40,353 nt of DNA from a virus (IMGVR_UViG_3300034358_000144:1-40353), one strand, 5' to 3'; positions 20,053-39,510 are shown, counted from the first letter of the stretch. Numbers and translations are program-made. Notes: a model not told the origin generated them from the sequence alone.

Positions 20053-20618
20053 TCGGGCACTCCCGACTTGTCGGTGCCCGCCTTGACCAGGCCGTGCTTG
20101 TGATGCTGCAGGCTAATATCTCCCGCCTTCACGTCGGCGGCGACGTCGGCTTTGCCGTCGATCGTCACGTCGCCGGTTACCTGCAGATTGCCTTGGACCT
20201 TGACGTCCGCCATCAGCTCTATGCCGCCGGGGGCCGTCACCTTGGCCTTGCCGCCGCCGGGGAGGATGGCCTCGAGAAGGTGCTCCTCGGGATCGTAGGC
20301 GATGATCGCGTCGTCGCCGAAGCGGATGACGACGCGCTTCGCGTCGCCGGCGGCGGGATTGTCGTTGCTGGGGAGGCCGCGCAGCACGAGCCCGGCGAGC
20401 GTGTCGCCTTCCGGCGCGACCAGCAGCACCTGCTCGCCGATGCTTGGCGGGCACCAGATGCGCGTTTCACCCGCCGACCCGGTGAGCCAGGGCACGTCGC
20501 CGGTCTCAAGGTCCCCGATCTGCACGCGGCAAGTGCCCTCGGCGAGGTCGACCGAAGTGACCGTACCGAGCTGGAGCATGTCGCCGATCAGGCGCTGAGT
20601 GTCGCGAGGATCGCCCAT
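20049..20618 (-). CDS. V: Baseplate spike protein V
   Basis: A 189-residue membrane-piercing spike. The N-terminal OB domain (TVTSVDLAEGTCRVQIGD, WCPPSIGEQVLLVAPEGD) is followed by a beta-helix (VKVQGNLQVTGDVTIDGKADVAADVKAGDI) and an apex with HHKH, which corresponds to the iron-binding His cluster of P2 gpV. The ATG is 56 bp from the centre of the late inverted repeat. It is the first gene of the V-W-FI operon. Confidence 0.92.
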   Translation of the reverse strand: MGDPRDTQRLIGDMLQLGTVTSVDLAEGTCRVQIGDLETGDVPWLTGSAGETRIWCPPSIGEQVLLVAPEGDTLAGLVLRGLPSNDNPAAGDAKRVVIRFGDDAIIAYDPEEHLLEAILPGGGKAKVTAPGGIELMADVKVQGNLQVTGDVTIDGKADVAADVKAGDISLQHHKHGLVKAGTDKSGVPE

Positions 20619-20709
20619 GCCGCCGTTGTGGCTACCGACAAGCGAGGCTGCATCGATCCGCCCTTGTAGACGGCGGCTCTACAAGGTGGGCGGGGGGGGA
20701 CTCGAGTAT
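20619..20709 (-). other. Late-operon regulatory gap before gene V
   Basis: A short non-coding stretch between the small ORF ending at 20710 and gene V. It holds the inverted repeat at 20663-20685 and a G-run (20688-20699). No obvious ribosome site for V is visible other than GGCGGC. The late promoter for V-W-FI is expected here. Confidence 0.55.
20663..20685. promoter_or_regulatory. Late inverted repeat 1 (candidate Ogr-type activator site, V operon)
   Basis: Perfect 8-bp arms CTTGTAGA and TCTACAAG flank a 7-bp spacer; with one further pair the arms are 9 bp (20662-20686). Read toward V the spacer is GCCGCCG. It contains TGT-N13-ACA, close to the P2 late activator site TGT-N12-ACA. The same element recurs at 27836 and 34415. 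Confidence 0.7.
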
Positions 20710-20967
20710 TCAGTCGAGCGCGCCGGGCACCGGCTGGGCTGCGACGATGTGCGCGGCCACGACTTGCTCCACATCGTGCAGGTTCCCGATCATGGAGCGT
20801 TCCGCTTCGGAAAGATCGATGCCGAGGGCCTCGAAGACGGCTAGCGCCGCTTCTTCCGCGTCGATCCCATGGTCGCGCAGATAGTCGAGCGGGTGGACGA
20901 AAGTCCCCGGCGCGTACCCCATGCGCGCAATCACCGCCGCGCGAACGACTTCCGAGGTATCAGTCAC
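20710..20967 (-). CDS. Small acidic protein, possibly ACP-fold-like
   Basis: An 85-residue protein; GTG 20967 has AAGGAG eight bases upstream, which favours it over longer in-frame starts. It is acidic and helical (VRAAVIARMGYAPG, then DYLRDHGIDAEEAALAVFEALGIDLSEAE, then LHDVEQVVAAHIVA). The pattern D-x-G-x-D-x-x-x-x-x-x-x-x-x-x-LGIDL resembles acyl carrier proteins, but the phosphopantetheine Ser would be replaced (GIDAEE). The resemblance may be chance. It ends the tail-fibre operon, directly after the SGNH fibre gene. Confidence 0.55.
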   Translation of the reverse strand: MTDTSEVVRAAVIARMGYAPGTFVHPLDYLRDHGIDAEEAALAVFEALGIDLSEAERSMIGNLHDVEQVVAAHIVAAQPVPGALD

Positions 20968-20980
20968 GAACGCATCTCCT

Positions 20981-23029
20981 TCACGCGAGGATGTCCTTGG
21001 GGAGCAAGCCCGCGACGCCGACCGCGCGGCCGAAATAGGCCGTACCGGCCGCACCCGCACCCGAATGAAGTCTCAACCTGCCGGTCGTTGCGTCGTTCGG
21101 GATGGGCTTGGTAAACAAATAGTGGTCAATCCAAGCCTCGGTGACCTTGTTGTAGAGCGGGCTGTACCAGGAATTGGTGTGGTAATTGGTGCCCGTCCCG
21201 TCGTCGAGGAACTGCAGGGCGCCGGTGTAAAGGTCGCCACCGGCAACGATATTCTGCCGAACGTAGAACACGAGCGCCTGCCCGCGCAGCGCCACGACCG
21301 AGAACGCGAACTCGACATAGCCGTCGCCGGTGACCTTAAGTGAGGTGCGGTCCCCCTTGGCGGTGTCAACCCGCTCGATCGAGCGGCTCGCGGTCGCACC
21401 GGTCACCGTCGCGCCCGTGGGTATCGCGCCGGTCCAGTTGTCGAACAGGCCATTGACGATGATGTTGGTGGTGGTCTTGCGGCCTTCGATCAACGGCGGC
21501 GCGACATAGGCAGGCGGGTTCGCCATGAACGCTACAAGGTCCGGCCCGGCGACGCTGGTGACGCGGGCGGCGCCGGCGTCGGTCATGTGGACATGGTCCG
21601 GCTGAAAGTCTGCGGAGTAGGCGTTGGTCGGATTGTAGGCGACGAAAGCGGCCACGACGTTGCTTAGGAAGCTGCCGTCGCCATAGGCATTGCTCACCCA
21701 CGTCTGCGCCGCGCGAACCGCGGCCATGGTATTGTTGCCGGGGATATTGACGTCGGGCTGGAGGATCGAGAAGTGCCGCGCGTTCGGGAATGCACGCCGA
21801 ACACGGTCGCTCAGCATCATATACGGCCCGCGGCGCAGATAACCGTCGGGATCCGGCAGAGTCGACGCGACCGCCATGTTCTGCCCGTGGTTGACCGCCC
21901 AAAAGTCGAGGCGCGGAAGTGCGCCGATCGACCGATTCCACCGCTCACCAAGGAAGTAGGTCGGGTCCGAACCCCCGACACAAAAGTTGTAGACGTAGAG
22001 GCGTGCGTCCGTGCTGCCGGTCGACAGCCGCTGAAAGCCGGTGAGCTGGTCGGCCTGCCTGTCCCATTCGACGTAGATCACGGAATGGGTCGGATACGCG
22101 GCGACCAGGTTCTCGGCGGCGATCTTATAGGGCGGCTCGGCGATGACGACGGTATTGTTCTGGTTGTCGCCAGTCGAATCGGAATTCCAACCGACAATCA
22201 TGTCGGTCGGCCTCGGTACGCGAATTGGGTCGAGCGCGTTGCGGAAATAGCGCCTGCAGGCGGCGGGGTTGGCGGGTGCCGCGCCCATCTTCATCATCCC
22301 GCCAAAGAAGGTCGTAGTGGCGTCGGCGTTGAGGAAGGGAACCTTGGTGATCGAGTTTTGCCCGGCGGCGTTGAGGGCGACGGTGCAGCTTGCAACCGTG
22401 TCGCCGTTGACCCACGCCGTGGCAACATCAGTGCCGATGACGGTCTGATCTGTCTGTCGCACCGAGATCGTTCCGCCGCCGAGGAGAGCGTCGAAAGCGT
22501 CATGCACCCCCGGCGGCGCCGAGAATTGCGGAGAGACCGCCGTCACCCGCGCCCGCGTCGGTGAGACGCCGGTCGCATCGGCGGCAACGGTGGCAAGGTT
22601 GTAACCTGATATGTAGAGACAGTTGTTGTCGTTCCTGTAGATGCCCAGCATCACGCGGCCGATCGTTGCGTTCTCGATGTGCTTGAACGCCCCGCAAATG
22701 TAGGCGGGAATCGTGAGAGCCTGCACGCCGCGCGAATAGAGGCCGGTATTGATGGCGCAGTGGACGTGCGGCACACCGTCGACGATGTAGAAAGTCGGGC
22801 GGCTGCCGGCGGTAGACTGGATCAGGTCCCAGCTCGTGTCGCCGAGCGCATTTCGGATGCAGCCGACGGGCTGGCCCGACGCGGTTACGGGCGTGGTCGC
22901 GGCGGCATCCTGAAACAGGTGGCGGCGCCATAGCGACAGGTCCCAGAGCGCGCCGATCTGGCCCGCGGTGAATTCCTGCGCAGGGTGATAGTCGTAGCGC
23001 GGCGTGCTGCCGTGGCCAATCATGCTCAC
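20981..23029 (-). CDS. Tail fibre/receptor-binding protein with SGNH (GDSL) hydrolase domain
   Basis: A 682-residue protein from GTG 23029, overlapping the upstream stop as GTGA. The N-terminal 260 residues look like a beta-sandwich (VPHVHCAINTGLYSRG, concanavalin-like). Residues about 277-500 read as an SGNH hydrolase: the nucleophile is Ser285 in NSDSTGDN (block I), with Gly352 in VGGSDPT (block II), Asn384 in NHGQN (block III) and Asp478/His481 in PDHVHMTDAGA (block V). The C-terminal 170 residues are a beta-rich carbohydrate-binding-type domain. It probably removes acyl groups from cell-surface polysaccharide during adsorption. The substrate is unknown. Confidence 0.75.
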   Translation of the reverse strand: MSMIGHGSTPRYDYHPAQEFTAGQIGALWDLSLWRRHLFQDAAATTPVTASGQPVGCIRNALGDTSWDLIQSTAGSRPTFYIVDGVPHVHCAINTGLYSRGVQALTIPAYICGAFKHIENATIGRVMLGIYRNDNNCLYISGYNLATVAADATGVSPTRARVTAVSPQFSAPPGVHDAFDALLGGGTISVRQTDQTVIGTDVATAWVNGDTVASCTVALNAAGQNSITKVPFLNADATTTFFGGMMKMGAAPANPAACRRYFRNALDPIRVPRPTDMIVGWNSDSTGDNQNNTVVIAEPPYKIAAENLVAAYPTHSVIYVEWDRQADQLTGFQRLSTGSTDARLYVYNFCVGGSDPTYFLGERWNRSIGALPRLDFWAVNHGQNMAVASTLPDPDGYLRRGPYMMLSDRVRRAFPNARHFSILQPDVNIPGNNTMAAVRAAQTWVSNAYGDGSFLSNVVAAFVAYNPTNAYSADFQPDHVHMTDAGAARVTSVAGPDLVAFMANPPAYVAPPLIEGRKTTTNIIVNGLFDNWTGAIPTGATVTGATASRSIERVDTAKGDRTSLKVTGDGYVEFAFSVVALRGQALVFYVRQNIVAGGDLYTGALQFLDDGTGTNYHTNSWYSPLYNKVTEAWIDHYLFTKPIPNDATTGRLRLHSGAGAAGTAYFGRAVGVAGLLPKDILA

Positions 23030-24246
23030 AGTGGCGTTCCCATCAATTTGACCGATATCTCGGTCATCGTCGTGTTTGTGCCGGCGAGGGCGATCTCGAG
23101 GCGAGACCCCAGCGTCGCGGAGATCGACAGGCCAGTAAGGAGGGCGCCCTCCGGCGTGACATTGACCGGGCCGTAGACCGGCCTGCCGTCGACGATGATG
23201 ACCGCCGTGCAGGTCCCTCCACCCTTGACGACGCGCGCGTGGAGGCGAGTCCAGGTTAGCGCGGGGAGATCATGGCCGCCGACGTAAGTGCCCACGGCGA
23301 CGCCGGCCGAGCGTTCGCAATGGATGCCATGCTCTACGGTTTGGCCGAAGCTGAATTGGAAGACCGCGGCGCCCGCCACGTTCTTGTAGACCGACATTGA
23401 TCCGTTCTCGGGGACGAGGAAAATGTCACCGTCGACGGTGTTCGCACCGATGATTGCAGTGATCACGGCGCCAGCGATCGGCGCGGTGACCGCGGGCGCC
23501 GAGGTGTAGTTCTTGCCCTTCTGCTGCCGCGTGACCTTGGTGACGGCCCCGCCGGTGACGAGCGCGCGAGCGGTTGCGCCGGTGCCGCCGCCGCCCGTGA
23601 GGGTGAGCTGATAGACGGCGTTGGCGCCGCCCGAGCTGGGCGTGGTGATGGCGTAGTCGAGCACGCCGTTCGACAACGCGTCGGCGGTGCTCAAGTAAGT
23701 GGACAGCACCCCTTGGGCGATCAGGTTTTCCACGAACGCCCGATCACCGGCGACGGCCGTGCGATCGATACCCGTCTGGGTCCGGTCGGCCGCGGCGTTG
23801 CCGGCACTGACTGCGGCGGCCGCAGCCGACGCGAGCGCGGCCGCTGCCGAGGCGGCGGCTGCAGCCGCGGAGGCGCCAGTCGTCGCGACGATGGTCCCCG
23901 TCGCCGAGATCAGCGCGGTCTCGATCGCATGCGCCTCTGTGGTCTCGGGAGCGAGGCCGTAGATCCTGCGCAAGAAAGCGGCGAACGTCTCGATCGGGAT
24001 GCCGGCGCCCCAACCGCCAACCGCCTTCGGCCCGTAGAGCGTGACGCCGTTGATCGCGGCAACATCGAGGTAGAGCGCGCCGAGGACGCCGGCACCGGCT
24101 GCGGGCGGGCCGTTGCCCTTGAGCACCATGGCCGTGGCGACCAGTTGGGCCAGGCTGGCGCGCTTGGCGACCCCACCCTTGAGGATCGGGACCTGCTCGC
24201 TGCCGTCGGGCGATTCGACCGGATCGAGAAGAGCTATCTTCGCCAT
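23026..24246 (-). CDS. Tail fibre-like protein with collagen-like Ala-rich stretch
   Basis: A 406-residue protein, ATG 24246, with AGGA seven bases upstream. After an N-terminal module (MAKIALLDPVESPDGSEQVPILKGG) that resembles fibre attachment segments, an Ala-rich run (about 125-150) looks like a rod, followed by beta-rich distal parts (GGGGTGATARALVTGGAVTKVTRQQKGKNYTSAP, a GAxAxA repeat of phage fibres). The last 150 residues are beta-sandwich-like. It lies between a tail-fibre assembly gene and the SGNH fibre. Adhesin role by context. Confidence 0.65.
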   Translation of the reverse strand: MAKIALLDPVESPDGSEQVPILKGGVAKRASLAQLVATAMVLKGNGPPAAGAGVLGALYLDVAAINGVTLYGPKAVGGWGAGIPIETFAAFLRRIYGLAPETTEAHAIETALISATGTIVATTGASAAAAAASAAAALASAAAAAVSAGNAAADRTQTGIDRTAVAGDRAFVENLIAQGVLSTYLSTADALSNGVLDYAITTPSSGGANAVYQLTLTGGGGTGATARALVTGGAVTKVTRQQKGKNYTSAPAVTAPIAGAVITAIIGANTVDGDIFLVPENGSMSVYKNVAGAAVFQFSFGQTVEHGIHCERSAGVAVGTYVGGHDLPALTWTRLHARVVKGGGTCTAVIIVDGRPVYGPVNVTPEGALLTGLSISATLGSRLEIALAGTNTTMTEISVKLMGTPL

Positions 24247-24249
24247 CGA

Positions 24250-24753
24250 CTATTCCTGCGCTGGCCAGCGCGGGTCCGCGGCGGCATCGTAGTTGGTGAG
24301 GTTGGCGGCGGGCATCGTGGCGATCGTCGCCTCGATCGCGTTGGAGGCGGCGCGGACCGCGTCGATCGTATGGCGCCGCTCGATAGCCGCGCTGATCGCC
24401 GCAAATTGCGCAGGGCTCGGTTGTTCGTCAGCGGGCACCATGCCGCGAAGCGCGATTGCAGCATTGTCGTTGGCCTGCCGCTCGAGGCTGGCGATCCCGA
24501 GGATACGGCGGCGGGCTTCGCGCTTGACGTCCAGCACTGCCCAGCCCCGAAGCTGGTCGACCGTCGGCTTGCGCAACGGCGCCAGCTCGGGCTTGCCCTT
24601 GGCGCCGGCGCGAACCTCCCGGCCGGCGCTGCGGCCGGCGAGCAGCTCGGCATGCCGCCGGCGTGTGATCGCGACCGCGTCGGCAGGAATGCCGCCAGCG
24701 TTAATATCGCGGTGGTAAAAGCTGTCGGTCGAGGGGCTCCAAAAGAACTCCAT
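24250..24753 (-). CDS. Tail-fibre assembly chaperone-like protein
   Basis: A 167-residue protein starting two bases after the fibre stop (TGACCATGG). Its N-terminal MEFFWSPSTDSFYHRDINAGGIPADAVAITRRRHAELLAG is the pattern of phage tail-fibre assembly (Tfa) proteins, with a short YSPSTxxFY strand and the DAVxIT loop. The C-terminal part is helical and Ala/Arg-rich. It probably helps trimerise the upstream fibre. Confidence 0.7.
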   Translation of the reverse strand: MEFFWSPSTDSFYHRDINAGGIPADAVAITRRRHAELLAGRSAGREVRAGAKGKPELAPLRKPTVDQLRGWAVLDVKREARRRILGIASLERQANDNAAIALRGMVPADEQPSPAQFAAISAAIERRHTIDAVRAASNAIEATIATMPAANLTNYDAAADPRWPAQE

Positions 24754-24755
24754 GG

Positions 24756-26246
24756 TCACAATCCGATCGAAAAGATGTCGATGCCGTCGATGCGGTTGTC
24801 GGCGCTGTCGTCGTGCTGGACCTGCACGTAGGCGCCGTATTGCGTCGGCTCGCCGCAGAGCTGGACCCACTGATCCCGGTGCGTGTTCGCGCTGGACAGG
24901 AACGCCGTCGGGAACGCCCGCAGCGCCGCCAGCGGATAGACGATCGGCCAGCCAAGATACTGCACCGACTCGTCGTTGAGCACGGCGCGCATGCCCGCCC
25001 ATTGCAGGATCAGCCCGCCGGGAAAGCAGTAATAGCCGTTCGAGGTGAGGCTCTTCGCCAAACCGGCGAGGCCGAGCGGCGTGACCGCCTTGCCGTTTTC
25101 GGTGCCGGTGAGGATTTCCGCCGCGCTGGCGATCGCCACGTCGATCGCGCGATCGGCGCTCAGGTCCCCGCCGCCGGTTGCAAGGCCGGTGCCGGAGATC
25201 AGGCGCGCCGTCTGCACGCGGCCGAGGAGGGCGGCGAGGATGCCGGCAAGCGCGAACGGCGTCACCGCCTTGGTGTCGATGAGGCCCGCTTCCGCTTCGG
25301 CCTGGCTGGCCTTGAGAACGGTGATGACGCGATCGGCGGCGAGGCTGCCCCCGCCTGTGGCAAGGCCGCCGCCCGTGATCGCGCGCGCGACGGGCGGCGC
25401 CCCTACATCGGCGGCGGTAAGCACCACAGCGCCAACCTTGCCGTTGACGGAGGTGACCGGCGCGGGGGTGGCGAGCTGAATCCAGTTGCCGAGCGTCGCC
25501 GCCGGCGTGGCCTGCAAGATGAAGACGAAACCGGTATCGACACGAACGGCGAAGTCGCCGGCAGTGGCGGCGGCGAGCGCAAGCATCGCTGCCTCGGTAG
25601 CGACCGGGTAGACGTCGATCGCGTCGATGATCGGACGCTGCCCGCCCGAGAGCTTGCCCGCCCCGTCGAGCGTCGCAACGCCGCCGGGCTGGCCGAGCAG
25701 GGCCGAGCGGACGTAATTCGCAAGCGCGCCCTTGAGCGTCGCCGGCGTGACGATCTTGTCGTCGATATCGCCGGCGAGCACCTCGGCGAGCAAAGCGAGG
25801 TAGGCGACCCCCTTGGTGACTTCGGTCGCCGGGGGGTTGAGGAAGTTCGTATTGCCGAGCGCTACCAGGTCGGCTTCGCCGGGGAGGAACTTGATGTCCA
25901 CGGCGAGGTGAAAGGTCGAAACCGCGGCCTTGCCAAGGATCGCCGCGGGCTGGCTGTAGACCGCAAACAGCGTGCCGTCGGCGAGATAGAGGCCGATCCC
26001 GCGTACCGAATAGGCATCGTCGCTCGAGTCGCGGATGACGAGATGCACGGTGACGTCATCGACCGCCTGCCCCGCCACGGTATCGACCGTCTTGAACTGC
26101 CCGGGCAGGGCGGTGAGCGTCGGCGCCGCGACGAAGGTGGCGTCGGTAAACCCGGCCTGCGCGATCACTACCGCCGTCGTGCCCTCGGCGGCCACTAGCG
26201 CGGCGCGGCCGGCATCGGTGATCACCATGGTAAGTGCAGCGCTCAT
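24756..26246 (-). CDS. H: Tail fibre protein H with gp53-like C-terminal domain
   Basis: A 496-residue P2 gpH-type fibre. The N-terminal 150 residues (LTMVITDAGRAALVAAEGT, ALPGQFKTVDTVAGQAVDDVTVHLVIRDSSDDAY, LGIGLY-like segments) attach to the baseplate. A repeat-rich shaft (ITGGGLATGGGSLAADRVI, ISGTGLATGGGDLSADRAI) follows, and then a distal gp53-like tip (SNGYYCFPGGLILQW). The ATG 26246 overlaps the stop of gene I as ATGA. It determines receptor binding. Confidence 0.88.
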   Translation of the reverse strand: MSAALTMVITDAGRAALVAAEGTTAVVIAQAGFTDATFVAAPTLTALPGQFKTVDTVAGQAVDDVTVHLVIRDSSDDAYSVRGIGLYLADGTLFAVYSQPAAILGKAAVSTFHLAVDIKFLPGEADLVALGNTNFLNPPATEVTKGVAYLALLAEVLAGDIDDKIVTPATLKGALANYVRSALLGQPGGVATLDGAGKLSGGQRPIIDAIDVYPVATEAAMLALAAATAGDFAVRVDTGFVFILQATPAATLGNWIQLATPAPVTSVNGKVGAVVLTAADVGAPPVARAITGGGLATGGGSLAADRVITVLKASQAEAEAGLIDTKAVTPFALAGILAALLGRVQTARLISGTGLATGGGDLSADRAIDVAIASAAEILTGTENGKAVTPLGLAGLAKSLTSNGYYCFPGGLILQWAGMRAVLNDESVQYLGWPIVYPLAALRAFPTAFLSSANTHRDQWVQLCGEPTQYGAYVQVQHDDSADNRIDGIDIFSIGL

Positions 26247-26896
26247 ACGGGGCTCCCGTCGATGAAATTGCCTGCATCGTCCTCGAGGGGCTCGCCGTTC
26301 TGATCCTGCAGAAGATCGGTCCACGGCGTGCCGGCCGCGTCGCTGGCCGCGAAGTCGAGACGCCGGTAGCCGGTGGCCTGCGCCGCAGCGAACGGGAGGA
26401 CCGTGCCGGAAAGCGTGAGTTGCTGGACGAGGGTGAAGTGCGCGCGGATCGGCTTGACCCGGCTCACCTCCTCGACGATCGCACGCGCGAAATCGGCGGT
26501 GCTGGACGCGCCGCCTGCAACGCCATCATCCTCGACGAGGGCGAGGCGCACTTCGAAGGTGTACGGCTCGAGCTGGGGCGTAGCCTCGAACCATTCGACC
26601 AGCTCGAGCAACGCGTCGAACGATGCGAGCACCTCCTCAACCGAGCGGCGGGTGCCCTTCCGCCGCTGCACCGCGATCGCGGACCCGACGGCAGCACGCT
26701 TTTCGGCGTCGCTCCAGCTCGGGTCCCAGCGGTCGATCGACAGTGCCCACGCCAGCCAGGGCAGCAGCTCGATCGCGCAGGTTGCCGGGTTCCACAGCCG
26801 CTCGAAATCGACAGGGACGGCGTCGATCGACGGCACGATCGCGCCGACAAGGGCGCGCTCGAGCGGCGTGCTCGCGGGGGGCAGCAGGTTATTCAC
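26243..26896 (-). CDS. I: Baseplate protein I
   Basis: A 217-residue P2 gpI-family protein, start ATG 26896 inside the last codons of J. The signature LLPPASTPLERALVGA, LWNPATCAIELLPWLAWALSIDRWDPSWSDAEKRAA and RKGTRRSVEEVL is clear. It connects the tail fibre to the baseplate. Confidence 0.95.
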   Translation of the reverse strand: MNNLLPPASTPLERALVGAIVPSIDAVPVDFERLWNPATCAIELLPWLAWALSIDRWDPSWSDAEKRAAVGSAIAVQRRKGTRRSVEEVLASFDALLELVEWFEATPQLEPYTFEVRLALVEDDGVAGGASSTADFARAIVEEVSRVKPIRAHFTLVQQLTLSGTVLPFAAAQATGYRRLDFAASDAAGTPWTDLLQDQNGEPLEDDAGNFIDGSPV

Positions 26897-27791
26897 CGCG
26901 GCCCGCCACAGTCACGACAGAGCCGACGCAATTGCTGCATTGGGTGTCGCTGATAGGCACGTCGGCAGCCGGCTTGACGAGATTGATGTTCGAAACGCCC
27001 TCGACGCCGAGCGCTGCGAGAATGCCGAAACGCGTCACATCGCGGCCGATCCGTCGCGAACGTGCCTGATAGGCGGCAAGCCGGGCTTGCGCCTGAGAGA
27101 GCACGAGGCTCTCGTCGGGACCGTCGAAGAGCGTCAGGGCCGCTTCGATCTCGAACGGAACGATCTCGGCCGACTGCACGAGCACGTTGTCGGTCAAGGG
27201 GCGCAAGGCGCCGGCGTCGTTGCCGAGCAGTTCCTCGACCTCCGCAATCTGCTCGGCGTCCGCTGCCCCGTTGCCATCGCGCGACAGCAGGCAGATCAGG
27301 ACCACGCCGGGCGCGGGGCTGCTTGCCCGCGCATCGACGATCGACGCATCCACGGAGCGGGCGTGAAATTCGTAGGCGGTGCCGGGGCCAGCGACCGAGA
27401 AGCTTTCCGGGGAGAGCTGGATGCGCTCGCGGAAGGCAGCGTTGCTCTCATAGGTGGGATCGACGCCGCTTTCGGGGTCGCCGGGATCGACGATCAGGCG
27501 CTCGACATTGAAGTTCGCGCCTAGCTGGTCGAGGTCCGCATCCTCGGAATAGGCCAGCATTACCTTGAGGGCATTGTCGTTCGCGCGCTGGCGCTCGAGC
27601 ATCACGCACCACGCCGCGACCTGCAGCACCTTCACAGCCGGGTCGGAATCGACGGTCGCGTCGAACTCGGGCATCAGCGCGACCATGCGCGCGACCATTT
27701 CGGCAAGGATGGTCTCGTAGGTTTGCGGCGCGGCAAAGCTCGGCGCGGGCAGGCGCGACAGATCAATGGCTGTGGAGCTTGGCGCGGACAC
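26889..27791 (-). CDS. J: Baseplate protein J
   Basis: A 300-residue P2 gpJ baseplate wedge protein. The family opening AIDLSRLPAPSF and the segments ETILAEMVARMVALMPEFDA, QRANDNALKVMLAYSEDADLDQLGA and AAFRERIQLSPESFSVAGPGTAYEFHA are present. I take GTG 27791 as start because it aligns with the P2 start; an in-frame TTG at 27818 is possible. The GTG is 56 bp from the centre of late repeat 2, the same distance as V from repeat 1. Confidence 0.9.
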   Translation of the reverse strand: MSAPSSTAIDLSRLPAPSFAAPQTYETILAEMVARMVALMPEFDATVDSDPAVKVLQVAAWCVMLERQRANDNALKVMLAYSEDADLDQLGANFNVERLIVDPGDPESGVDPTYESNAAFRERIQLSPESFSVAGPGTAYEFHARSVDASIVDARASSPAPGVVLICLLSRDGNGAADAEQIAEVEELLGNDAGALRPLTDNVLVQSAEIVPFEIEAALTLFDGPDESLVLSQAQARLAAYQARSRRIGRDVTRFGILAALGVEGVSNINLVKPAADVPISDTQCSNCVGSVVTVAGRGE

Positions 27792-27835
27792 GCCGGCATG
27801 TCGCCGCCGGTCCGCCAAGTTGGCTATCGCGCGCG

Positions 27836-27858
27836 CTTGTAGAACGCGGCTCTACAAG
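27836..27858. promoter_or_regulatory. Late inverted repeat 2 (candidate Ogr-type activator site, J operon)
   Basis: CTTGTAGA and TCTACAAG flank a 7-bp spacer that reads GCCGCGT toward gene J, identical to repeat 3 read toward P. It lies in the short gap between the S stop (27869) and the J start, so it should drive J-I-H and the fibre genes. Confidence 0.7.
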
Positions 27859-27868
27859 GAAGCGGCAG

Positions 27869-28528
27869 TCATTCGCCGGCGACGTGAGCGAGCAGCGTGT
27901 CGACCATGGTAGATCGCTCCGCCTCGGTTAGACCGAGCAGCGTGCGGCGGGCGTAGGCGACGGGCCGCGCCTTCTTGGACGGGCGATCGCGCAGGCCCTC
28001 CTGATGGACGCGCGCGATCTCGGACGCGCGCCCGCTGAAACCTATCCATGCCTCATTTTCGGTCGCGTCGCTGCGCAGGTTGCGCCCGCTTCGAAGCTTG
28101 CGGAACATCGCCTTTTGCCGGATCGAGCCGCGGCGGCGGAACTTGCCCTTGCCGCCGCCGAGGTCGCTGGTCGGCAGCCACTTCGCCACCTTGTCCCAGA
28201 AGAAGCTGCGGATGCCGCCGGCCTCGGTGTCATAGCCGGTGATCAGCGGGCCTTGGCGGACCCAGCTCGTCATCGTCACGCGGCGCGGCTCGGTCGCGCC
28301 CTTGGGGTAGAGGAAGCGCAGGGGATAGGCTCCCGCTGCCGGCGCCTCCTTTGGCTTGCGCGGCGGGAAGGGCGATCCGTCGGGGGCGAGCTGGCGCCCG
28401 ATGCGCTCGCGCTGCGTGGCGGCGATGCCGCGCGCGACCTTGCGAAGTAGCTGGCGCCGCTCGGACGCGCCGAGGCTTCGGAGGATGGCGCCCGCCAGTT
28501 CCTCGATCCGCTCGAGGCCGTCGCTCAC
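27869..28528 (-). CDS. S: Tail completion protein S
   Basis: A 219-residue P2 gpS-type tail completion protein (virus morphogenesis family). Residues about 20-75 (LAGAILRSLGASERRQLLRKVARGIAATQRERIGRQLAPDGSPFPPRK) are characteristic, and VHQEGLRDRPS near the C-terminus is the conserved H-QEG-R motif. GTG 28528 overlaps the R stop as GTGA. Arg- and Ala-rich, consistent with this high-GC genome. Confidence 0.88.
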   Translation of the reverse strand: MSDGLERIEELAGAILRSLGASERRQLLRKVARGIAATQRERIGRQLAPDGSPFPPRKPKEAPAAGAYPLRFLYPKGATEPRRVTMTSWVRQGPLITGYDTEAGGIRSFFWDKVAKWLPTSDLGGGKGKFRRRGSIRQKAMFRKLRSGRNLRSDATENEAWIGFSGRASEIARVHQEGLRDRPSKKARPVAYARRTLLGLTEAERSTMVDTLLAHVAGE

Positions 28529-29019
28529 GGTGGGGGCATGTTCGGGCTCTCGAACAATACGTCGTCGCCGAGTTCGAGCTGCCATAGCGTCGCGCCGCAG
28601 ACGCCGGCGAAGGCATCGGGCGCGCGGCCATCCTCAAGATGGCGAACGTTGTAGCCGGTGCCGTCCTGCTTGCGTTCGACCAGCACCCGTTCGGAGAGCT
28701 GCAGGTCGAGCGATACGTCGGAGGCATCGCTGTCGAGGAGTTCGGACTCGAACGTCAGCGGCTCGTTGGGCGCGCGCTCGAGGAGATCAGGCTGCGCCTC
28801 GGCGATCCAAACGAGGATCGGCAGCATCAGCGCGTCGTGCGATCCGGCATAATCCTGGATCACGACGTTGAGGGTGTAGTGATATTCGAACGACAGAGTC
28901 GTCGTTGCCCGCGCTACCAGCTTTCCCTTGTCGACGAAGATCGACAGCCGCTCGGGGTTATCCTTGAGCGTGGGGACGCGCTCGAGGAGCACGCGCTTGA
29001 GGGCTTCGGGCTTGTGCAT
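28525..29019 (-). CDS. R: Tail completion protein R
   Basis: A 164-residue P2 gpR-family protein. MHKPEALKRVLLERVPTLKDNPERLSIFVDKGKL, the following FEYHYTLNVVIQDYAG and ILVWIAEAQPDLL are typical. ATG 29019 starts six bases after the Rz1 stop. It completes the tail before head joining. Confidence 0.9.
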   Translation of the reverse strand: MHKPEALKRVLLERVPTLKDNPERLSIFVDKGKLVARATTTLSFEYHYTLNVVIQDYAGSHDALMLPILVWIAEAQPDLLERAPNEPLTFESELLDSDASDVSLDLQLSERVLVERKQDGTGYNVRHLEDGRAPDAFAGVCGATLWQLELGDDVLFESPNMPPP

Positions 29020-29024
29020 CGCGG

Positions 29025-29369
29025 CTAGTCGCCTGCGCGCGGCGCGGCGGTGCAATCGTCGCGGATCGGCATTCCCTGCGCGGCGAGCACGGCGCACTGC
29101 AGCCGCACGAGCTGGCCGCGCAGGCTCCCGATCACGTCGTACAGGTCGAGCTGGGTCGCGTGCGCCTGCTCACCGGTCTGGTTGCCATCAGCGTTGCGGC
29201 GTGGGAGCGGGGCCTTCTCGGGCCGCTGCAGGTACGCGCTCGGGATCGCCGCCATTGGCGACGGCGGCTGCTTGATCGAGGAGGCGCACGCCGTCAGCAT
29301 CAACGCAGACATTGCGATAAACAGGGCGCTCGGTGATCGTGTTGGTTTCACGGTAGATTTCCCTAACAT
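29025..29369 (-). CDS. Outer-membrane spanin Rz1-like lipoprotein, overlapping Rz
   Basis: A 114-residue protein, out of frame inside and beyond the Rz gene (182 bp overlap). The lipobox is LTAC in LFIAMSALMLTACASS, so signal peptidase II would cleave before Cys32 or so. A Pro-rich region follows (QPPSPMAAIPSAYLQRPEKAPLPRR), typical of Rz1. The ATG at 29369 or an internal GTG/ATG could be the start. It forms the outer-membrane part of the spanin complex. Confidence 0.8.
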   Translation of the reverse strand: MLGKSTVKPTRSPSALFIAMSALMLTACASSIKQPPSPMAAIPSAYLQRPEKAPLPRRNADGNQTGEQAHATQLDLYDVIGSLRGQLVRLQCAVLAAQGMPIRDDCTAAPRAGD

Positions 29370-29580
29370 TGGCGGTGCGTTCGGTTTCCCGGCGTTCGGC
29401 GGCGGCGCCGGCCTGGTCGACGATGACGGCGCGTTTTGCCTGCTCTTTCCGCACGGCAGCATCGACCGCCGCCTGCTTGGCGACCTCGATCGCGCGACCA
29501 TCGCTGCGCCCAGAACCGTAGGCCCCGAGCAACATGCCGAGCAGCGCGAGCGCACCGGCGAGCCAGACCCAAGGCTTCAC
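29188..29580 (-). CDS. Inner-membrane spanin Rz-like protein
   Basis: A 130-residue protein starting at GTG 29580, overlapping the lysozyme stop as GTGA. A single N-terminal TM helix (VWLAGALALLGMLLGAY) is followed by an extended coiled coil (IEVAKQAAVDAAVRKEQAKRAVIVDQAGAAAERRETE), the Rz architecture. Together with the nested Rz1 it would fuse inner and outer membranes at the end of lysis. Confidence 0.82.
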   Translation of the reverse strand: MKPWVWLAGALALLGMLLGAYGSGRSDGRAIEVAKQAAVDAAVRKEQAKRAVIVDQAGAAAERRETERTANVREIYRETNTITERPVYRNVCVDADGVRLLDQAAAVANGGDPERVPAAAREGPAPTPQR

Positions 29581-30062
29581 GCCGCCGCTCCTGTCCGCAT
29601 CATCGCCTCGAGGCGGATCGCACGCGTGCCGACCTGGCGGTGCCAGAGCGACGCCGCCATGCCGCGGGCTGCATCCTCGAAGCGCCCGCCCTGAATCATG
29701 GCCAGCGTGTTGCGGAAACCGAGCAGGCCGTTGATGCCGAGGTTGAAACACATGTTGAGCAGCACGCGCTGGCGAGCATCGGCGAGCTGGCGCCACCACG
29801 GCAGCTTCGCGTCGAGATCACGCTCGACACGAGCGATATCGTTGGCGAACAGCGCGCGAGACTGGTCGCGAGTGATGCCCTTGGCGATTGCGCTTGCCTT
29901 CGTGATGCCGAGGGTCGCCGTCTCCGAGGCGGAGATGCCGACGCCGTCAAGATTGCGGCCGATGCCGATCGTCTGCTTGCCTGCGGTGCAGCGATAGACT
30001 TGCAGCCGTTCGCCTTCATCACGCACCAACTCCTCCTCAAGGGCCCTGCGATCGTAAGTCAT
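29577..30062 (-). CDS. Endolysin, GH24 lysozyme with Glu-Cys-Thr triad
   Basis: A 161-residue T4-type lysozyme that cleaves peptidoglycan. ATG 30062 has GAGGAGG six bases upstream. The catalytic region LVRDEGERLQVYRCTAGKQTIGIG aligns with T4 lysozyme: Glu16, Cys25 and Thr31 take the places of Glu11, Asp20 and Thr26, with identical 9 and 6 spacings. The Asp is replaced by Cys; T4 lysozyme with that change is known to keep activity. The C-terminus has NMCFNLGINGLLGFRNTLAMI and an Arg-rich tail. No signal sequence is visible, so export should rely on the holin. Confidence 0.92.
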   Translation of the reverse strand: MTYDRRALEEELVRDEGERLQVYRCTAGKQTIGIGRNLDGVGISASETATLGITKASAIAKGITRDQSRALFANDIARVERDLDAKLPWWRQLADARQRVLLNMCFNLGINGLLGFRNTLAMIQGGRFEDAARGMAASLWHRQVGTRAIRLEAMMRTGAAA

Positions 30063-30073
30063 CAATTGCCTCC

Positions 30074-30229
30074 TCAGTGGCGCTTCGCGGGCCGACCGCG
30101 TCGGGCGGGCGGGCGAGGGTCGGGTTCGTGGAACAGGATGGGGCGCGCGCCCGAGCACGCCTCGAGCAAGGCGTCGGCGGCGGTGCGCACCGAATGACCG
30201 GTGCTGGCGAGGGACGGCTTAGTTGCCAT
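30074..30229 (-). CDS. 51-residue basic protein in the lysis cluster
   Basis: The frame from ATG 30229 overlaps the holin-candidate stop (ATGGCAACTAA) and ends just before the lysozyme ribosome site. The product is MATKPSLASTGHSVRTAADA..., ending PPARRGRPAKRH. The GRP and basic tail resemble an AT-hook. The packed stop/start arrangement supports a gene. The function is unknown. Confidence 0.45.
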   Translation of the reverse strand: MATKPSLASTGHSVRTAADALLEACSGARPILFHEPDPRPPARRGRPAKRH

Positions 30230-30440
30230 CGGGCGGCCTCCCGGTGATCTTCATCACCAGCGCTGTCAGGGCCGCGGTCAGCTTCTTGTCTGTCTCGAGC
30301 CGATCCTTGTCGTATTGCAGGCGCTCCGCGCGATCGGCGCGGGTTGCGTCGCGATCGGCCTTCATCTGGAAATAGAAGAAGAGCGCGACGATGCCGGCGG
30401 GGCCGCTGCCGATCAGCGCATTGACGAGGGGAGCCTCCAT
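30219..30440 (-). CDS. Small membrane protein at the holin (Y) position
   Basis: A 73-residue protein from ATG 30440. One hydrophobic segment (VNALIGSGPAGIVALFFYFQM, about 6-26) is followed by a charged helix (KADRDATRADRAERLQYDKDRLETDKKL). It sits between X and the lysozyme, the place of P2 holin Y. With one visible TM it is unlike the three-TM P2 holin, so holin is a positional guess. An upstream TTG start in frame is less likely. Confidence 0.55.
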   Translation of the reverse strand: MEAPLVNALIGSGPAGIVALFFYFQMKADRDATRADRAERLQYDKDRLETDKKLTAALTALVMKITGRPPDGN

Positions 30441-30445
30441 TGAAC

Positions 30446-30661
30446 TCAATCCCAAAGCTGCACGAGGGGGACGGTGCGCGGAGCAACGAGCGCCTCGTCG
30501 GGTACGGTGACAGGGGTGCCGACGGGCAGGGTCGCGCCCAGCTCGGCGAGTCCGCGATTCGCGCGCAGGACGATGCCGACCGCGGCCGAGCCGAGGCTGC
30601 GCTCTCGGTGCAGCAGCGCGTCGAGGGTATCGCCCTGGCGGGCGCGCAGCACCGCGGGCAT
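30446..30661 (-). CDS. X: Tail protein X (LysM-type)
   Basis: A 71-residue P2 gpX homologue. The sequence RQGDTLDALLHRERSLG, then VLRANRGLAELGATLPVGTPVTVPD, is a LysM-type fold that ends with the conserved IxLPxLTPxV pattern. ATG 30661 overlaps the L stop (TGATG). It is part of the tail baseplate in P2-like phages. Confidence 0.9.
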   Translation of the reverse strand: MPAVLRARQGDTLDALLHRERSLGSAAVGIVLRANRGLAELGATLPVGTPVTVPDEALVAPRTVPLVQLWD

Positions 30662-31149
30662 CAGATCAGCTCCACATTGGTGCGCGTCACGCCGAGCAGA
30701 TCGCGCACGGCGTGGATCGCGTCGCGGCGAAGCTCGCCGATCGACGCGTCGAGTTCGTCGACCTGACGCTGCCCGGCGCCGGTGAGATCGGTGTCGCGAT
30801 AGCGCTCGACCAGCTCGACCTTGACCGCGGCCCCGATGGCGCGACCATAGAGCTGGATAAGGCGGCTCTTGCCGTCGATCTGCGGCGACGGGACCGCGCC
30901 CAGGTTCGCGTGCCCCGCGGCAACGTGCCCCGCTTTGAACGCGACGAGCTGGTTGCCGACGGTGATGATGGCGCCGACGATCGCCGCGCGCAGGCGGGGA
31001 GGCGTCACCGAATCGCGGATGCGGAACTCCTCCCGAAGGCTCGCCGGATCGATACCTGGAAACCAGCCGTCGTTGGTGACAACGGCCTCGGGGGTGTCAT
31101 CGGCCTCGGGCACGATCGAAGGCGTGCAGTCGGTGACGAAGCCCGTCAT
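30661..31149 (-). CDS. L: Head completion/stabilisation protein L
   Basis: A 162-residue P2 gpL homologue. It contains NDGWFPGIDPASLREEFRIRDSVTPPRLRAAIVGAI and ELVERYRDTDLTGAGQRQVDELDASI, matching family blocks. ATG 31149 overlaps the preceding membrane-protein stop as ATGA. It seals the head after packaging. Confidence 0.93.
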   Translation of the reverse strand: MTGFVTDCTPSIVPEADDTPEAVVTNDGWFPGIDPASLREEFRIRDSVTPPRLRAAIVGAIITVGNQLVAFKAGHVAAGHANLGAVPSPQIDGKSRLIQLYGRAIGAAVKVELVERYRDTDLTGAGQRQVDELDASIGELRRDAIHAVRDLLGVTRTNVELI

Positions 31150-31361
31150 GCGACCATCCCCGCCGCGAGGAAGCAGGCGCCGAGGAAGTAGACGGCGAAG
31201 CCGCCGAGGATCAGGAGGATGCCGATGACGAGGTTGCGCAGGCCGACGCGCTGGGTCGGCGGGTCGCCGATCGTCGGGAAGGCGATCATCGACACGATGA
31301 TGCCGGCGGCGATCGCCACCACTCCGACAATCAACATCAGGGCGCCGAGAAGCGCGAGCAC
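31146..31361 (-). CDS. Small two-TM membrane protein, holin candidate
   Basis: A 71-residue protein from GTG 31361, which has AAGGA six bases upstream. Two hydrophobic segments (LALLGALMLIVGVVAIAAGIIVSMIAF and LVIGILLILGGFAVYFLGACFLAAGMV) are separated by a short polar loop (PTIGDPPTQRVG). It is inserted between M and L, an unusual place. Its size and two-helix topology fit a class II-type holin or antiholin; function not established. Confidence 0.6.
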   Translation of the reverse strand: MLALLGALMLIVGVVAIAAGIIVSMIAFPTIGDPPTQRVGLRNLVIGILLILGGFAVYFLGACFLAAGMVA

Positions 31362-31367
31362 GGGCAA

Positions 31368-31478
31368 TCCTTCATCGAAGCCGGTTGCCGGGGGTGGGGA
31401 TCGGACTGCCGACGGCCCTCAGCCCGAAGGCCCTCCCGTCGCGTGCGATCCGCCCCCGGTCGCCGGGGGGCGAGCTTG
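31368..31478 (-). other. Non-coding gap with hairpin between M and membrane protein
   Basis: A 111-bp gap without a gene. Positions 31451-31472 form a strong hairpin, CGCCCCCGG with CCGGGGGGCG, just past the M stop. No T-run follows, so it may limit but not stop late transcription. Confidence 0.35.
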
Positions 31479-32348
31479 TCAGGCCTGCAGAGCAGGCGCG
31501 GCCTCGAGGAGCTTCTCGAGCCGCTTGATCTTTTCCTTGGCGCCGACGCGCGCGTTGAGCTGCACGGCGCGGCGAAGCGGCACGAGCGCCGCTTCGCACC
31601 CCGTGCGCAGATCCGGCGACGCCGGGTCGAGCCCCTCGGCGACGCGCGCCAGCTCGAACCCGATCGCCTTGAGCAGCTTGGCGCGGATTTGATCGTGCAT
31701 GTCGGCTTCGGCCGTCATTGTCTCGACGCGGCGGAGCACCTCGAGGTCGAACGTCTCGCCGGCGAGCTGCGCGGCGAGCGCGGCGGTGGCGATCTCCTCG
31801 GTGATCAGCGACGCGGCGTCGCGCTCGTAGCGGCCCGGCATCGGGATGCCGAAGCGCAGGACGTGCGCGGCGAGCTGCAGCGCATCGTCGAACATGCCGA
31901 CGTCGATCAGCCACACCATGATCGTGGGGGTGACCTCTTCGGGCACTGCCGCGCCGCGCTCGGCGGCGCCGGTGAGCACGCCGATCACCCAATCGCGATA
32001 CGCCGGGAGCATCTCGCGCTTCGCGGCGACCTTCGCGTCGATCGACTTGATTTCCTTGAGGCGGCGCAGATCGTGGATCAGGCGGAGCATGATCTGCTGC
32101 GCGGCCTGATCTTCCGGCGAACCGGTGTTGGTCTCGACGGCAACCGTCGCGGCGGCCACGGCGGCGGCATCGAAGCCGAGGCCGAGCACTCGGGCCTTGT
32201 GCGCCCGCGCCAGACTGTAGCCGGGCTCGCCGGGCGCGGGAACGCGCCGCTCCGCTACGGGCTCGATGGTGAGCCCGCCCTCCGATGCAGCGCTATCCGC
32301 CGATTGTGCGGCCAGGGTTCGTTCCCGGTGCTGGCGAGCGAGGCTCAT
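31479..32348 (-). CDS. M: Terminase small subunit M
   Basis: A 289-residue P2 gpM homologue, which with gpP cuts DNA at cos. It begins MSLARQHRERTLAAQ. Residues about 75-130 (AQQIMLRLIHDLRRLKEIKSIDAKVAAKREMLPAYRDWVIGVL) and MVWLIDVGMFDDALQLAAHVLRFGIPMP are family hallmarks. The start ATG 32348 has AGGA seven bases upstream. Confidence 0.93.
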   Translation of the reverse strand: MSLARQHRERTLAAQSADSAASEGGLTIEPVAERRVPAPGEPGYSLARAHKARVLGLGFDAAAVAAATVAVETNTGSPEDQAAQQIMLRLIHDLRRLKEIKSIDAKVAAKREMLPAYRDWVIGVLTGAAERGAAVPEEVTPTIMVWLIDVGMFDDALQLAAHVLRFGIPMPGRYERDAASLITEEIATAALAAQLAGETFDLEVLRRVETMTAEADMHDQIRAKLLKAIGFELARVAEGLDPASPDLRTGCEAALVPLRRAVQLNARVGAKEKIKRLEKLLEAAPALQA

Positions 32349-32400
32349 TGCGGTGTCCTGTTTCGGAGGGGGGCTACGGGTGGCAGGCGTGAGCCGGCGA

Positions 32401-33450
32401 TCAGGCCGGCTTCTTGCCCATGACGATGTTCTCGACGAGCGCGCACAGGCCGTAATCCTCGACGACATAGGCCTCGTTGACGCTCTCGTAATTCTCGACC
32501 TGGTCGAGCGCGGGCTCGTCCTTGAGCAGGCGGCGGCGGGTGCCCTCCTGCTCATAGATCGACAGGTTATCGAGGCGGGTGATCAGCAGCTTGCCGGCGG
32601 GGAAGCCGGGGACGCGAACCGCCTGCAGGCCGCCGACCTTCTTGGTCGAGAGCAGCACGTCGCGCGCGAGCATTTCGGTCGCCTTGTCGCCGGCGGCGTT
32701 GACGATGTTGAAATACTTGTCGTGGACCAGGTCGCGCCCGCAGATCACGACCAGCTCGGTATCGTCGCGGTTCCACTCGTCGAGCAGCTCGACCGCGTCG
32801 AACACGACCGCGTCGAGATTGACATAGTCGACCTCGGTGCCGACCTCGCCCTCGGCGACATAGACGGCCTTGGTCGGATCGACGGTGAGGCCGCCGTCGG
32901 AGAGAACGCGTGCGGCGGCGAAGGTCCGGATTTTGTAGAGCCAGCCCTTGTTGACATCCTGCAGCAGCGGGTTGGCGGCGCGATCGGTGGCGGCGGCGAC
33001 CGAGGTGCCGTTCCAGCCGATCAGGATGCGATCGAGCCCCTGGCGCTTGGTGATCGCGTTGCGCACCATCTGCTGAAACTCGGGCTTGTGCGCCCAGGCA
33101 TCGAGCGTCGCGTACTTGATCGCGCTGTCGAAATTGGTCTGCTCGCAGCGGTAGCGACCGCCGTCCGACGTATCGTGCGCCGCCGTCGGGGTGCGGCGGT
33201 TGCCCGCGGCGGTGTTCGTGCGGCCCGCGATCGTGCGGGTGACGCCGACGCCGACCTTGTCGCCTTCCTGCGCGATCACGCTGATCACGTTGATGCGCGA
33301 GAGGAAATCGCTCTGCGCCTGCTGCACCTCGATCAGCTTCTGCTGGACGGAGGGCGCGACGGTGAACTGCTCGTTCGCCGATGCGACGGCGCTCAGTAGG
33401 GCGATCTGCGAGCAGTAGGAGTGATAGAGGGCGCGGGTGGCATTACGCAT
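32401..33450 (-). CDS. N: Major capsid protein N
   Basis: A 349-residue P2 gpN-family capsid protein. It contains NINVISVIAQEGDKVGVGVTRTIAGRTNT-type segments, KGWLYKIR and GRDLVHDKYFNIVN, LDNLSIYEQEGTRRR and ENYESVNEAYVVEDYGL. The start ATG 33450 has AGGAG seven bases upstream. In P2 the N-terminus is removed by the gpO protease; the same is expected here. Confidence 0.95.
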   Translation of the reverse strand: MRNATRALYHSYCSQIALLSAVASANEQFTVAPSVQQKLIEVQQAQSDFLSRINVISVIAQEGDKVGVGVTRTIAGRTNTAAGNRRTPTAAHDTSDGGRYRCEQTNFDSAIKYATLDAWAHKPEFQQMVRNAITKRQGLDRILIGWNGTSVAAATDRAANPLLQDVNKGWLYKIRTFAAARVLSDGGLTVDPTKAVYVAEGEVGTEVDYVNLDAVVFDAVELLDEWNRDDTELVVICGRDLVHDKYFNIVNAAGDKATEMLARDVLLSTKKVGGLQAVRVPGFPAGKLLITRLDNLSIYEQEGTRRRLLKDEPALDQVENYESVNEAYVVEDYGLCALVENIVMGKKPA

Positions 33451-33493
33451 CGGGGGGCTCCTGGCGGAAAAGGCTTGGGGGCTCGGGTGTCGA

Positions 33494-34318
33494 TCAGCAG
33501 TCGGTGAGGACGGCGGCGGTGCCGCCGGTGGCCGGCTGCCGGTTGAAGCCGGGCTGCTCGGTCTTTTCGAGCTGGCCCTTGAGGGTCGCGAAGTCCGACT
33601 GCAGTGTTGCCTGCGCGTCGGTGACGGGCTTGAGCGCCGCGACGATCGAGGCGGAGACGGTCTTGCCCATCTCGGTAGCGAAGGCCGCGAGGTTGTCGTT
33701 CGCCGGCGTCTCGCGCTTCGGCTCTTCCTTCGGCTTCTCCGGCTCCTCGCCCTTGAACTTGGCAGTGAGCGCGGCGAAGAAGCCGGCGATCGCGCCTTCG
33801 ACCTTGGTCGGGTCCGCCGGGGCTGCATCGAACTCGAGCGCGATACCCTCGTTGCCCGAGGAGAAGACGGTTCCGGGGGCAGCTCGCGAGAAGTTGAGCT
33901 TCTGGGTGGCGATGCTGGCAGGGTTGTCGGTGAAGGCGATGTTGACGATGCCGACTTGCTGGGCGCCCGCGTAATCGGGGGTCAACTCGACCGAAGGGAA
34001 GGGCTTCTGCCCCTTGCTGGCCAGCTCGACGAGCGGGTTGAGGGCATCGACCTGCGCGTACAGCGCGCGGCGCTTCTCGGTCTTGCCGGCGATGACGATA
34101 TCGTCGGTCTGCGCCCGAACCGCGATGACGTCGCCATAGCGGTTGAACGGCGGCTCGGGGCTGAAACCGCTGATGTGCTCGATGTTGATGCCGGGCGTGT
34201 ACGTCTCGATGTTGAAGGTCGCGACGATCTGATCGACCATCTCCGCGGTGACGACGCGCCCGTCGCTGATGGTCTGGCCTTCGACGAAGGCGCGGAAGAA
34301 CTTGCTCTTGGTGCCCAT
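33494..34318 (-). CDS. O: Capsid scaffolding protein and serine protease O
   Basis: A 274-residue P2 gpO homologue with an N-terminal protease and C-terminal scaffold. The triad is Asp19, His48 (INIEHISG) and Ser109 (FPSVELTPDY), equivalent to P2 Asp19, His48 and Ser107. The C-terminal half is Lys/Glu-rich (EEPEKPKEEPKRE) and helical. The start ATG 34318 is 98 bp from the near end of repeat 3. It processes itself and the capsid. Confidence 0.94.
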   Translation of the reverse strand: MGTKSKFFRAFVEGQTISDGRVVTAEMVDQIVATFNIETYTPGINIEHISGFSPEPPFNRYGDVIAVRAQTDDIVIAGKTEKRRALYAQVDALNPLVELASKGQKPFPSVELTPDYAGAQQVGIVNIAFTDNPASIATQKLNFSRAAPGTVFSSGNEGIALEFDAAPADPTKVEGAIAGFFAALTAKFKGEEPEKPKEEPKRETPANDNLAAFATEMGKTVSASIVAALKPVTDAQATLQSDFATLKGQLEKTEQPGFNRQPATGGTAAVLTDC

Positions 34319-34405
34319 GGCGGTGCGGTCCCTCGGATCGTTCGATGCTGGCGGCCAAGCCGCGCTGACCGGGCGAACAGGGACCGAAGGGGCCGTTATT
34401 CTCAA

Positions 34406-34446
34406 GCGAGCGCCCTTGTAGAGCCGCGTTCTACAAGGGCGCTCGC
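34406..34446. promoter_or_regulatory. Late inverted repeat 3, extended (candidate Ogr-type activator site between O and P)
   Basis: The core CTTGTAGA-N7-TCTACAAG (34415-34437) is extended to perfect 17-bp arms (34406-34422 and 34430-34446). It lies in the divergent O/P region, as the P2 late promoters do, and probably serves both directions. Read toward P the spacer is GCCGCGT, the same as repeat 2 toward J. It could also form a strong RNA hairpin. Confidence 0.72.
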
Positions 34447-34485
34447 TCCGATGCCGATCGCCGGCGTGGCTAGGTTCGCCGCGCA

Positions 34486-39430: not shown

Positions 39431-39480
39431 CTGCAATCGCACTGCAGAGGTCAGCGGTTCGATCCCGCTCAGCTCCACCA
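39431..39480 (+). other. attR: 3' remnant of tRNA-Ala(CGC)
   Basis: Fifty bases match the 3' part of a tRNA: anticodon stem CTGCA/TGCAG around the loop ATCGCAC (anticodon CGC), variable AGGTC, T-arm AGCGG-TTCGATC-CCGCT, and acceptor end CAGCTCC-A-CCA. Position 70 would be U, allowing the G3:U70 identity pair of tRNA-Ala. The D-arm and 5' acceptor strand are missing, so this is a duplicated attachment-site half, not a working gene. The intact tRNA gene should lie just left of the integrase, outside the window. Confidence 0.75.
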
Positions 39481-39510
39481 GCCGCCTAGCCTGAAATCGC
39501 CGCGAGGGGA

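Follow-up and report, generated by a model that had tools for sequence, protein, structure and literature searches.

Inverted repeats before the late operons of a Sphingomonas-type P2-like prophage as probable sites of its own Ogr-type activator

Introduction

Which factor reads the three inverted repeats that stand in front of the late operons of a P2-like prophage? We addressed this question in the IMG/VR virus record IMGVR_UViG_3300034358_000144:1-40353, whose 40,353 bases are called the window throughout. The window is a P2-like prophage of Sphingomonas type: it carries P2-type terminase, capsid, tail and baseplate genes, an integrase at 1-1395, and the capsid/terminase/tail gene order with divergent O and P that marks Peduoviridae-like (P2-like) phages. 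Ogr/Delta activators are known from textbooks for late control in phages and for P4 helper hijacking, and an earlier note on this DNA had taken the repeats for probable sites of an Ogr-like activator. Our comparative sequence analysis supports that reading. We put the probability that the three repeats (hereafter dyads) are DNA sites of the phage's own Ogr-type activator at roughly 0.9.

Dyads before the late operons

The dyad CTTGTAGA-N7-TCTACAAG has exactly three exact matches in the window, at the positions that the earlier note had given, where shuffled sequences would be expected to yield 0.02. There is no fourth copy in the window even when up to three mismatches are allowed. The arms are perfect over 8 bp and the core spacing is TGT-N13-ACA.

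20663-20685, minus strand: dyad CTTGTAGAGCCGCCGTCTACAAG, before V-W-FI-FII-E-T-D
27836-27858, minus strand: dyad CTTGTAGAGCCGCGTTCTACAAG, in the S/J gap, before J-I-H
34415-34437, no strand assigned: dyad CTTGTAGAGCCGCGTTCTACAAG (read toward P), common to the divergent O and P operons

Gene positions agree with the placement in the gaps before V, J and divergent O/P that had been described.

20049-20618, minus strand: V, baseplate spike, heads the V operon (Pfam Phage_base_V)
26889-27818, minus strand: J, baseplate J-like, heads the J operon (Pfam Baseplate_J)
33494-34318, minus strand: O, scaffold/protease homologue, heads the O operon (assigned from gene order and from homologues in relatives)
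34486-36612, plus strand: P, terminase ATPase (Pfam Terminase_6N, Terminase_5); homology is limited to the first 600 residues, and Q (36311-37363) overlaps the P tail

This is the layout of P2-type late promoters, with a TGT...ACA dyad upstream of each late operon and one common to O and P, and the three dyads together cover all late structural units of the window. The centre of the V dyad is 56 bp away from the V start codon, and dyad 34415-34437 lies between the starts of O (34318) and P (34486). In the direction of the downstream gene, the spacer is GCCGCCG for V and GCCGCGT for both J and P, that is, GCCGC followed by two variable bases, exactly as reported before. The GCCGC spacer is specific to the window phage, its relatives carrying other, often palindromic spacers, and we rejected it as a directional signal because it is not conserved in them.

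The Ogr-type activator

The window does encode a protein with the exact Ogr cysteine spacing, another point on which the earlier note was right.

10434-10790, minus strand: Ogr/Delta-type zinc-ribbon candidate activator, CX2CX22CX4C, Pfam PF04606, PHROG 603; adjoins primase

The frame spans 10434-10967 on the minus strand, with a likely start at 10790 or 10769, and its cysteines read CPHC-X22-CDNELC (C-X2-C-X22-C-X4-C). The candidate matches Pfam Ogr_Delta (PF04606) at E=8e-13 and 48.5 bits, over a curated cut-off of 26.3, and PHROG 603 at E=5e-22, and the four cysteines are invariant across 32 relatives. Burkholderia phage FLC5 also has ogr beside primase. The predicted model is a three-strand zinc ribbon with a predicted local distance difference test score (pLDDT) >90 in the core. 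A sequence search of solved structures returned no relative of Ogr, a fold search with the model gave no PDB match at E <0.001, and we found no DNA-recognition code for Ogr/Delta activators. A second zinc-finger open reading frame, at 38352-38675, was ruled out as Ogr: its pattern is CX2C-X30-CX2C and it matches no profile.

Two Ogr relatives (L379 and L381, from records G027 and G034) end in CDGC or CEQC, CX2C instead of CX4C, and are still paired with canonical CTTGTAGA sites.

Copies in viral relatives

A scan of viral contigs found the dyad in at least 118 stretches. Among 42 viral records searched whole, 31 hold two to four copies (≤1 mismatch) and 24 have an Ogr_Delta match; those without one are mostly short or single-copy. 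We assigned copy positions by mapping homologous genes. Of the 144 distinct viral copies among the matches listed, 133 immediately precede V, J, P or O. Another 3 are near P2 genes but not directly upstream, the remaining 8 are in loci without a P2 gene, and not one falls inside an aligned P2-like gene. The earlier suggestion that the repeat should recur upstream of late genes in related phages is borne out by these copies, and random occurrence within aligned P2-like genes was not seen. Median distances from copy to gene start are 57 bp for V, 51 for J, 74 for P and 109 for O. Where a cargo insertion has split O from P (phages L019, L021, L023, L061, L097, L114, L177 and L207), there are two copies, one before each gene, which supports one site per operon start.

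Copies in host genomes

The main host genus in our genome scan is Sphingomonas. The exact dyad occurs in 58 copies in 24 of 295 Sphingomonas genomes, where chance would give 0.03 (random 66% GC sequence, ~1.15 Gb), and a reversed control pattern has zero matches in the same 295 genomes. Ogr_Delta is found in 54 of the 295 (52 over the cut-off): the match is present in 15 of the 24 dyad-bearing genomes versus 39 of the 271 dyad-free ones (Fisher p=5e-7), and each of the 11 genomes with at least three copies has it. Across the host family, 3 of 348 sampled genomes carry the exact dyad, all in P2-like late leaders. Sphingomonas is a hot spot for Ogr-bearing prophages. In a wider sample, Ogr_Delta is over the cut-off in 3 of 385 Alphaproteobacteria, one of the three being the Sphingomonas centre genome.

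Occurrence in host genomes, which the earlier note had named as a test of its reading, is nearly clean: 47 of the 58 Sphingomonas copies are in or clustered with P2-like prophages (a gene-by-gene check covered most of the 47), while the other 11 have no P2-like gene within the fetched DNA and are mostly unexplained. These isolated copies occur between host genes, next to an orphan integrase or within a serine-recombinase element; a search for P4-like satellites behind them recognised none.

Several isolated copies can be described individually. Three Sphingomonas genomes (L279, L284, L286) carry the exact dyad at an orthologous position, 69-82 bp ahead of a pyridoxamine-phosphate-oxidase-like gene; the 163-nt stretch downstream of the L283 dyad is 73% identical to that of L279, with different neighbouring genes, and no P2 gene lies near any of these four dyads. 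Copies L282, L288, L289 and L290 have the spacer AAGGCTT. They belong to a transposon-like element with no relation to P2 genes and precede a serine recombinase by ~400 bp. The L281 dyad (8899) is the centre of a perfect palindrome with 23 more paired bases per arm and is close to an orphan tyrosine integrase. At L280 (7194) an exact dyad sits just after uvrB, shortly before a HigB/HigA-like toxin-antitoxin pair (identified by eye).

Core promoter

We aligned nonredundant canonical leaders on the dyad centre and found two conserved blocks (~+21 and ~+44 from the centre) with a more variable stretch between them.

34448-34475, plus strand: candidate core promoter of P, GGCTAGGTT block at ~+42 to +50 from the dyad centre; 27 nonredundant relatives
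34370-34405, minus strand: candidate core promoter of O, TTGAG at +21 to +25, TTCGGTCCCTGTTCG from +38; 24 nonredundant relatives
27795-27830, minus strand: candidate core promoter of J, TAGCC at +21, CGACATG near +43/+44; 38 nonredundant relatives

In O leaders, both T and both G of TTGAG are present in 24/24 and the A in 96%, and the second block, at ~+42 to +50, is GTCCCTGTT-like. P leaders have GGCTAGG near +42 and no clear upstream block, and V leaders have CTCGC at +20 (G at +23 in 41/41) and CATGGTC near +43. The J, P and O leaders of the window fit this layout. Because the aligned leaders are related, conservation is overstated, and the argument therefore relies on how the blocks stand out from the stretch between them and on their recurrence with other arms: the blocks stand at a similar distance in most prophages whose arms differ. 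The core elements fit a sigma-70 type promoter with a start near +55 from the dyad centre, and conserved elements at +21 and +44 would imply such a start.

The P2 record has a single site for O and P, and its annotated transcript starts are 55-57 bp away from the site centres. The V messenger RNA of the window may be leaderless or nearly so, because its start codon is 56 bp from the dyad centre and the two V starts coincide in P2. That coincidence of transcript start and start codon is at 10308 of the P2 record (L125); the V site of the same record, at 10242, reads TTGT-N11-ACAA rather than the consensus N12.

Different arms in other prophages

For ~30 Ogr-bearing Sphingomonas prophages without the exact dyad, we fetched the DNA beside Ogr. 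Gene order is largely unchanged in them, and in a de novo search of their V, J, P and O leaders most show one dyad common to their own leaders. Examples, to which further ones could be added, are:

G087 and G181: de novo leader dyad ATCGTAGA
G144: de novo leader dyad ATGGTAGA
G165: de novo leader dyad TGTGTAGA
G223: de novo leader dyad TTTGTAGA
G071: de novo leader dyad CGTGTAGA or CATGTAGA
G311: de novo leader dyad CCGGTAGA
G251: de novo leader dyad GTTGTAGG
G060: de novo leader dyad GGTGTGGC with GTAGTGGC
G066: de novo leader dyad GGTGTGGG

Because a de novo search rewards agreement among leaders, we ran mixed- and shuffled-leader controls. For dyads shared by V, J and P, 10 of 19 prophages score above the 99th percentile of mixed leaders (14.33), the mixed sets including prophages that happen to share arms, and 13 of 19 exceed the shuffled-leader maximum of 12.08. 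A raw permutation of arms within versus between prophages is biased by dyad selection and was not relied on. Spacing varies as well: several prophages use N14 (for example G153, CTTGTGAAA-N6-TTTCACAAG), G268 mixes N13 and N14, and G820, from a wider Alphaproteobacteria sample, has GTTGTTAGC palindromes, N11 by TTGT/ACAA count. Where a dyad is found, GT...AC at arm positions 4-5 is nearly invariant. One host genus thus holds more than 20 natural Ogr-site pairings on a nearly constant core promoter.

In a set of 27 prophages, those with more distant Ogr proteins tend to have more distant arms as well (Mantel r=0.40, p=0.0005). This correlation persists when V, T, D or FI is controlled singly (partial r 0.19-0.35). 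A search for Ogr specificity residues returned several columns with large permutation z-scores, relatedness being uncontrolled. One candidate initially picked out by eye, the residue 9 positions after the first Cys (Ala with A at arm position 9), was weak (p=0.047 among many columns) and was set aside. Ogr and its site appear to diversify as a unit between prophages. We give even odds to the broader proposal that Ogr and the dyads of Sphingomonas P2-like prophages form a rapidly diversifying, mutually insulated pair, with a lineage-specific half-site and a nearly constant core.

Proposed mechanism and alternatives

The position, distribution and co-occurrence of the dyads, arms that are largely common within a prophage, and the conserved core elements were observed directly. 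We conclude that the dyads belong to late promoters that depend on Ogr, and that the sequence of the activator site has diversified from one prophage to another, a conclusion in which we infer Ogr binding, its dimeric form, polymerase contact, transcript starts and late timing. In this model Ogr, probably dimeric, would occupy the two half-sites of every dyad, with the dyad centre ~55 bp ahead of the transcript start, and would recruit host sigma-70 RNA polymerase to weak core promoters (the +21 and +44 elements). Four late operons would be switched on from three sites, O and P sharing one. In Sphingomonas prophages the half-site varies from phage to phage while remaining mostly common to the late operons of one phage, and the core promoter is kept.

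Several observations weigh against this model. Ogr was undetected in two site-bearing prophage remnants (G056 and G059), and the V leader of the window is without the core blocks at the usual offset. G316 has mixed arms (ATGGTAGA for V, ATCGTAGA for O/P); no clear dyad emerged for G118 in the de novo leader search, and G138 has a weak, unlike dyad with a different core. The specificity-residue search established no single Ogr residue. FI distance correlates with arm distance at r=0.44, and at r=0.26 after control for Ogr; FI tracks the arms as well as Ogr does, and shared ancestry therefore contributes. The same FI result would suit another phage regulator reading the late-promoter sites in place of Ogr, for example the helix-turn-helix protein encoded at 11678-12229; other regulators are co-inherited with the prophage and co-occurrence alone cannot separate them from Ogr. 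However, Ogr is the established activator of such a promoter layout in P2-like phages (PMC3931495), published Ogr-site motifs have the same TGT...ACA core, and the helix-turn-helix gene, divergent from the early genes, resembles a repressor (Pfam HTH_31), so that we regard a different regulator as improbable.

Perfect inverted repeats in intergenic gaps could also be transcription terminators or attenuator hairpins between operons, and many of the matches in AT-rich genomes of unrelated organisms, with their T runs, have the appearance of terminators. The prophage copies, in contrast, have no T run after the dyad and have core elements at a fixed distance downstream of it; a terminator would be needless at the O/P copy, between divergent genes, and O and P split by cargo each have their own copy at the 5' end. 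The chance that the dyads are terminators is very small. Much the same slight credence goes to operators of a host regulator borrowed by the phages. The 11 exact copies outside P2-like prophages in the 295 Sphingomonas genomes (~0.03 expected), three of them at the orthologous place before the oxidase-like gene, speak for it, but 271 of the 295 genus genomes and 345 of the 348 family genomes have no exact copy, and a shared host factor would not explain why arms differ among prophages of one host genus. Partition, packaging or replication sites also typically come as several identical palindromes scattered over a phage; such roles are next to negligible here, where copies keep characteristic distances to the starts of V, J, P and O and core elements follow the dyads at fixed spacing.

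Other features of the window

The right end of the window carries host HemF, identified by eye from its translation. The adjoining stretch 39440-39482 resembles, also by eye, the 3' part of a transfer RNA gene (GGTTCGATCCCGCTCAGCTCCACCA) and is the probable attachment site; ARAGORN found no complete transfer RNA. An Rfam search gave no matches. The C-terminal part of the product of 6659-7141 resembles GapR, a family of nucleoid-associated proteins, at a score under the curated cut-off.

Relation to known systems and meaning

P2 combines a TGT-N12-ACA consensus with a CX2CX22CX4C activator (PMC3931495). The window resembles P2 (PP/PO, PV, PF) in this activator, in the site shared by O and P, and probably also in the 55-57 bp centring and in a V start at or near the transcript start. 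In contrast to the imperfect dyads and published N12 of P2, its arms are perfect over 8 bp with N13, and relatives have N13 or N14; its ogr lies beside primase rather than after D; and its V and W belong to the FI operon, so that three sites suffice. Ralstonia phages phiRSA1/phiRSY1 have TGTTGT-N13-ACAACA before four late genes and an Ogr homologue (PMC5694545). They share spacing and activator type with the window and differ in the arms outside the TGT/ACA core and in their betaproteobacterial host. The earlier note was correct that the window spacing is one base longer than that of P2, but the novelty that it implied does not hold, since N13 is published for these phages; N12 defines P2 and not the family.

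Stenotrophomonas Smp131 has the J-I-H / V-W-FI split and proposed Ogr sites at O/P, J and V, but its reported sites are TGT-N12-ACA, and we found no TTGT-N(7-15)-ACAA dyad in it. Pseudomonas phage Dobby (Citexvirus) has N13 dyads at O/P and FI (TTGTAG-N9-CTACAA at O/P) and Burkholderia KS5 has TTGT-N13-ACAA at O/P, V and FI; both differ from the window in shorter or imperfect arms and in their gamma- and betaproteobacterial hosts. N13 and Ogr sites being known already, the kind of system is known. A report of Ogr-type late promoters in Sphingomonas phages was not found in the open-access literature subset. Three things appear to be new: the regulon in its alphaproteobacterial setting, the layout of its core promoter, and the way in which the dyad has diversified between prophages of one host genus.

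With more than 20 Ogr-site pairings on a nearly constant core, the recognition code, the role of N13 versus N14 and prophage insulation become directly testable, and the pairings supply candidate orthogonal activator-promoter pairs for alphaproteobacteria. If our reading is right, they would form a natural series for reading the DNA code of the Ogr zinc ribbon, and a co-resident prophage or satellite would not easily cross-activate an insulated Ogr-dyad pair.

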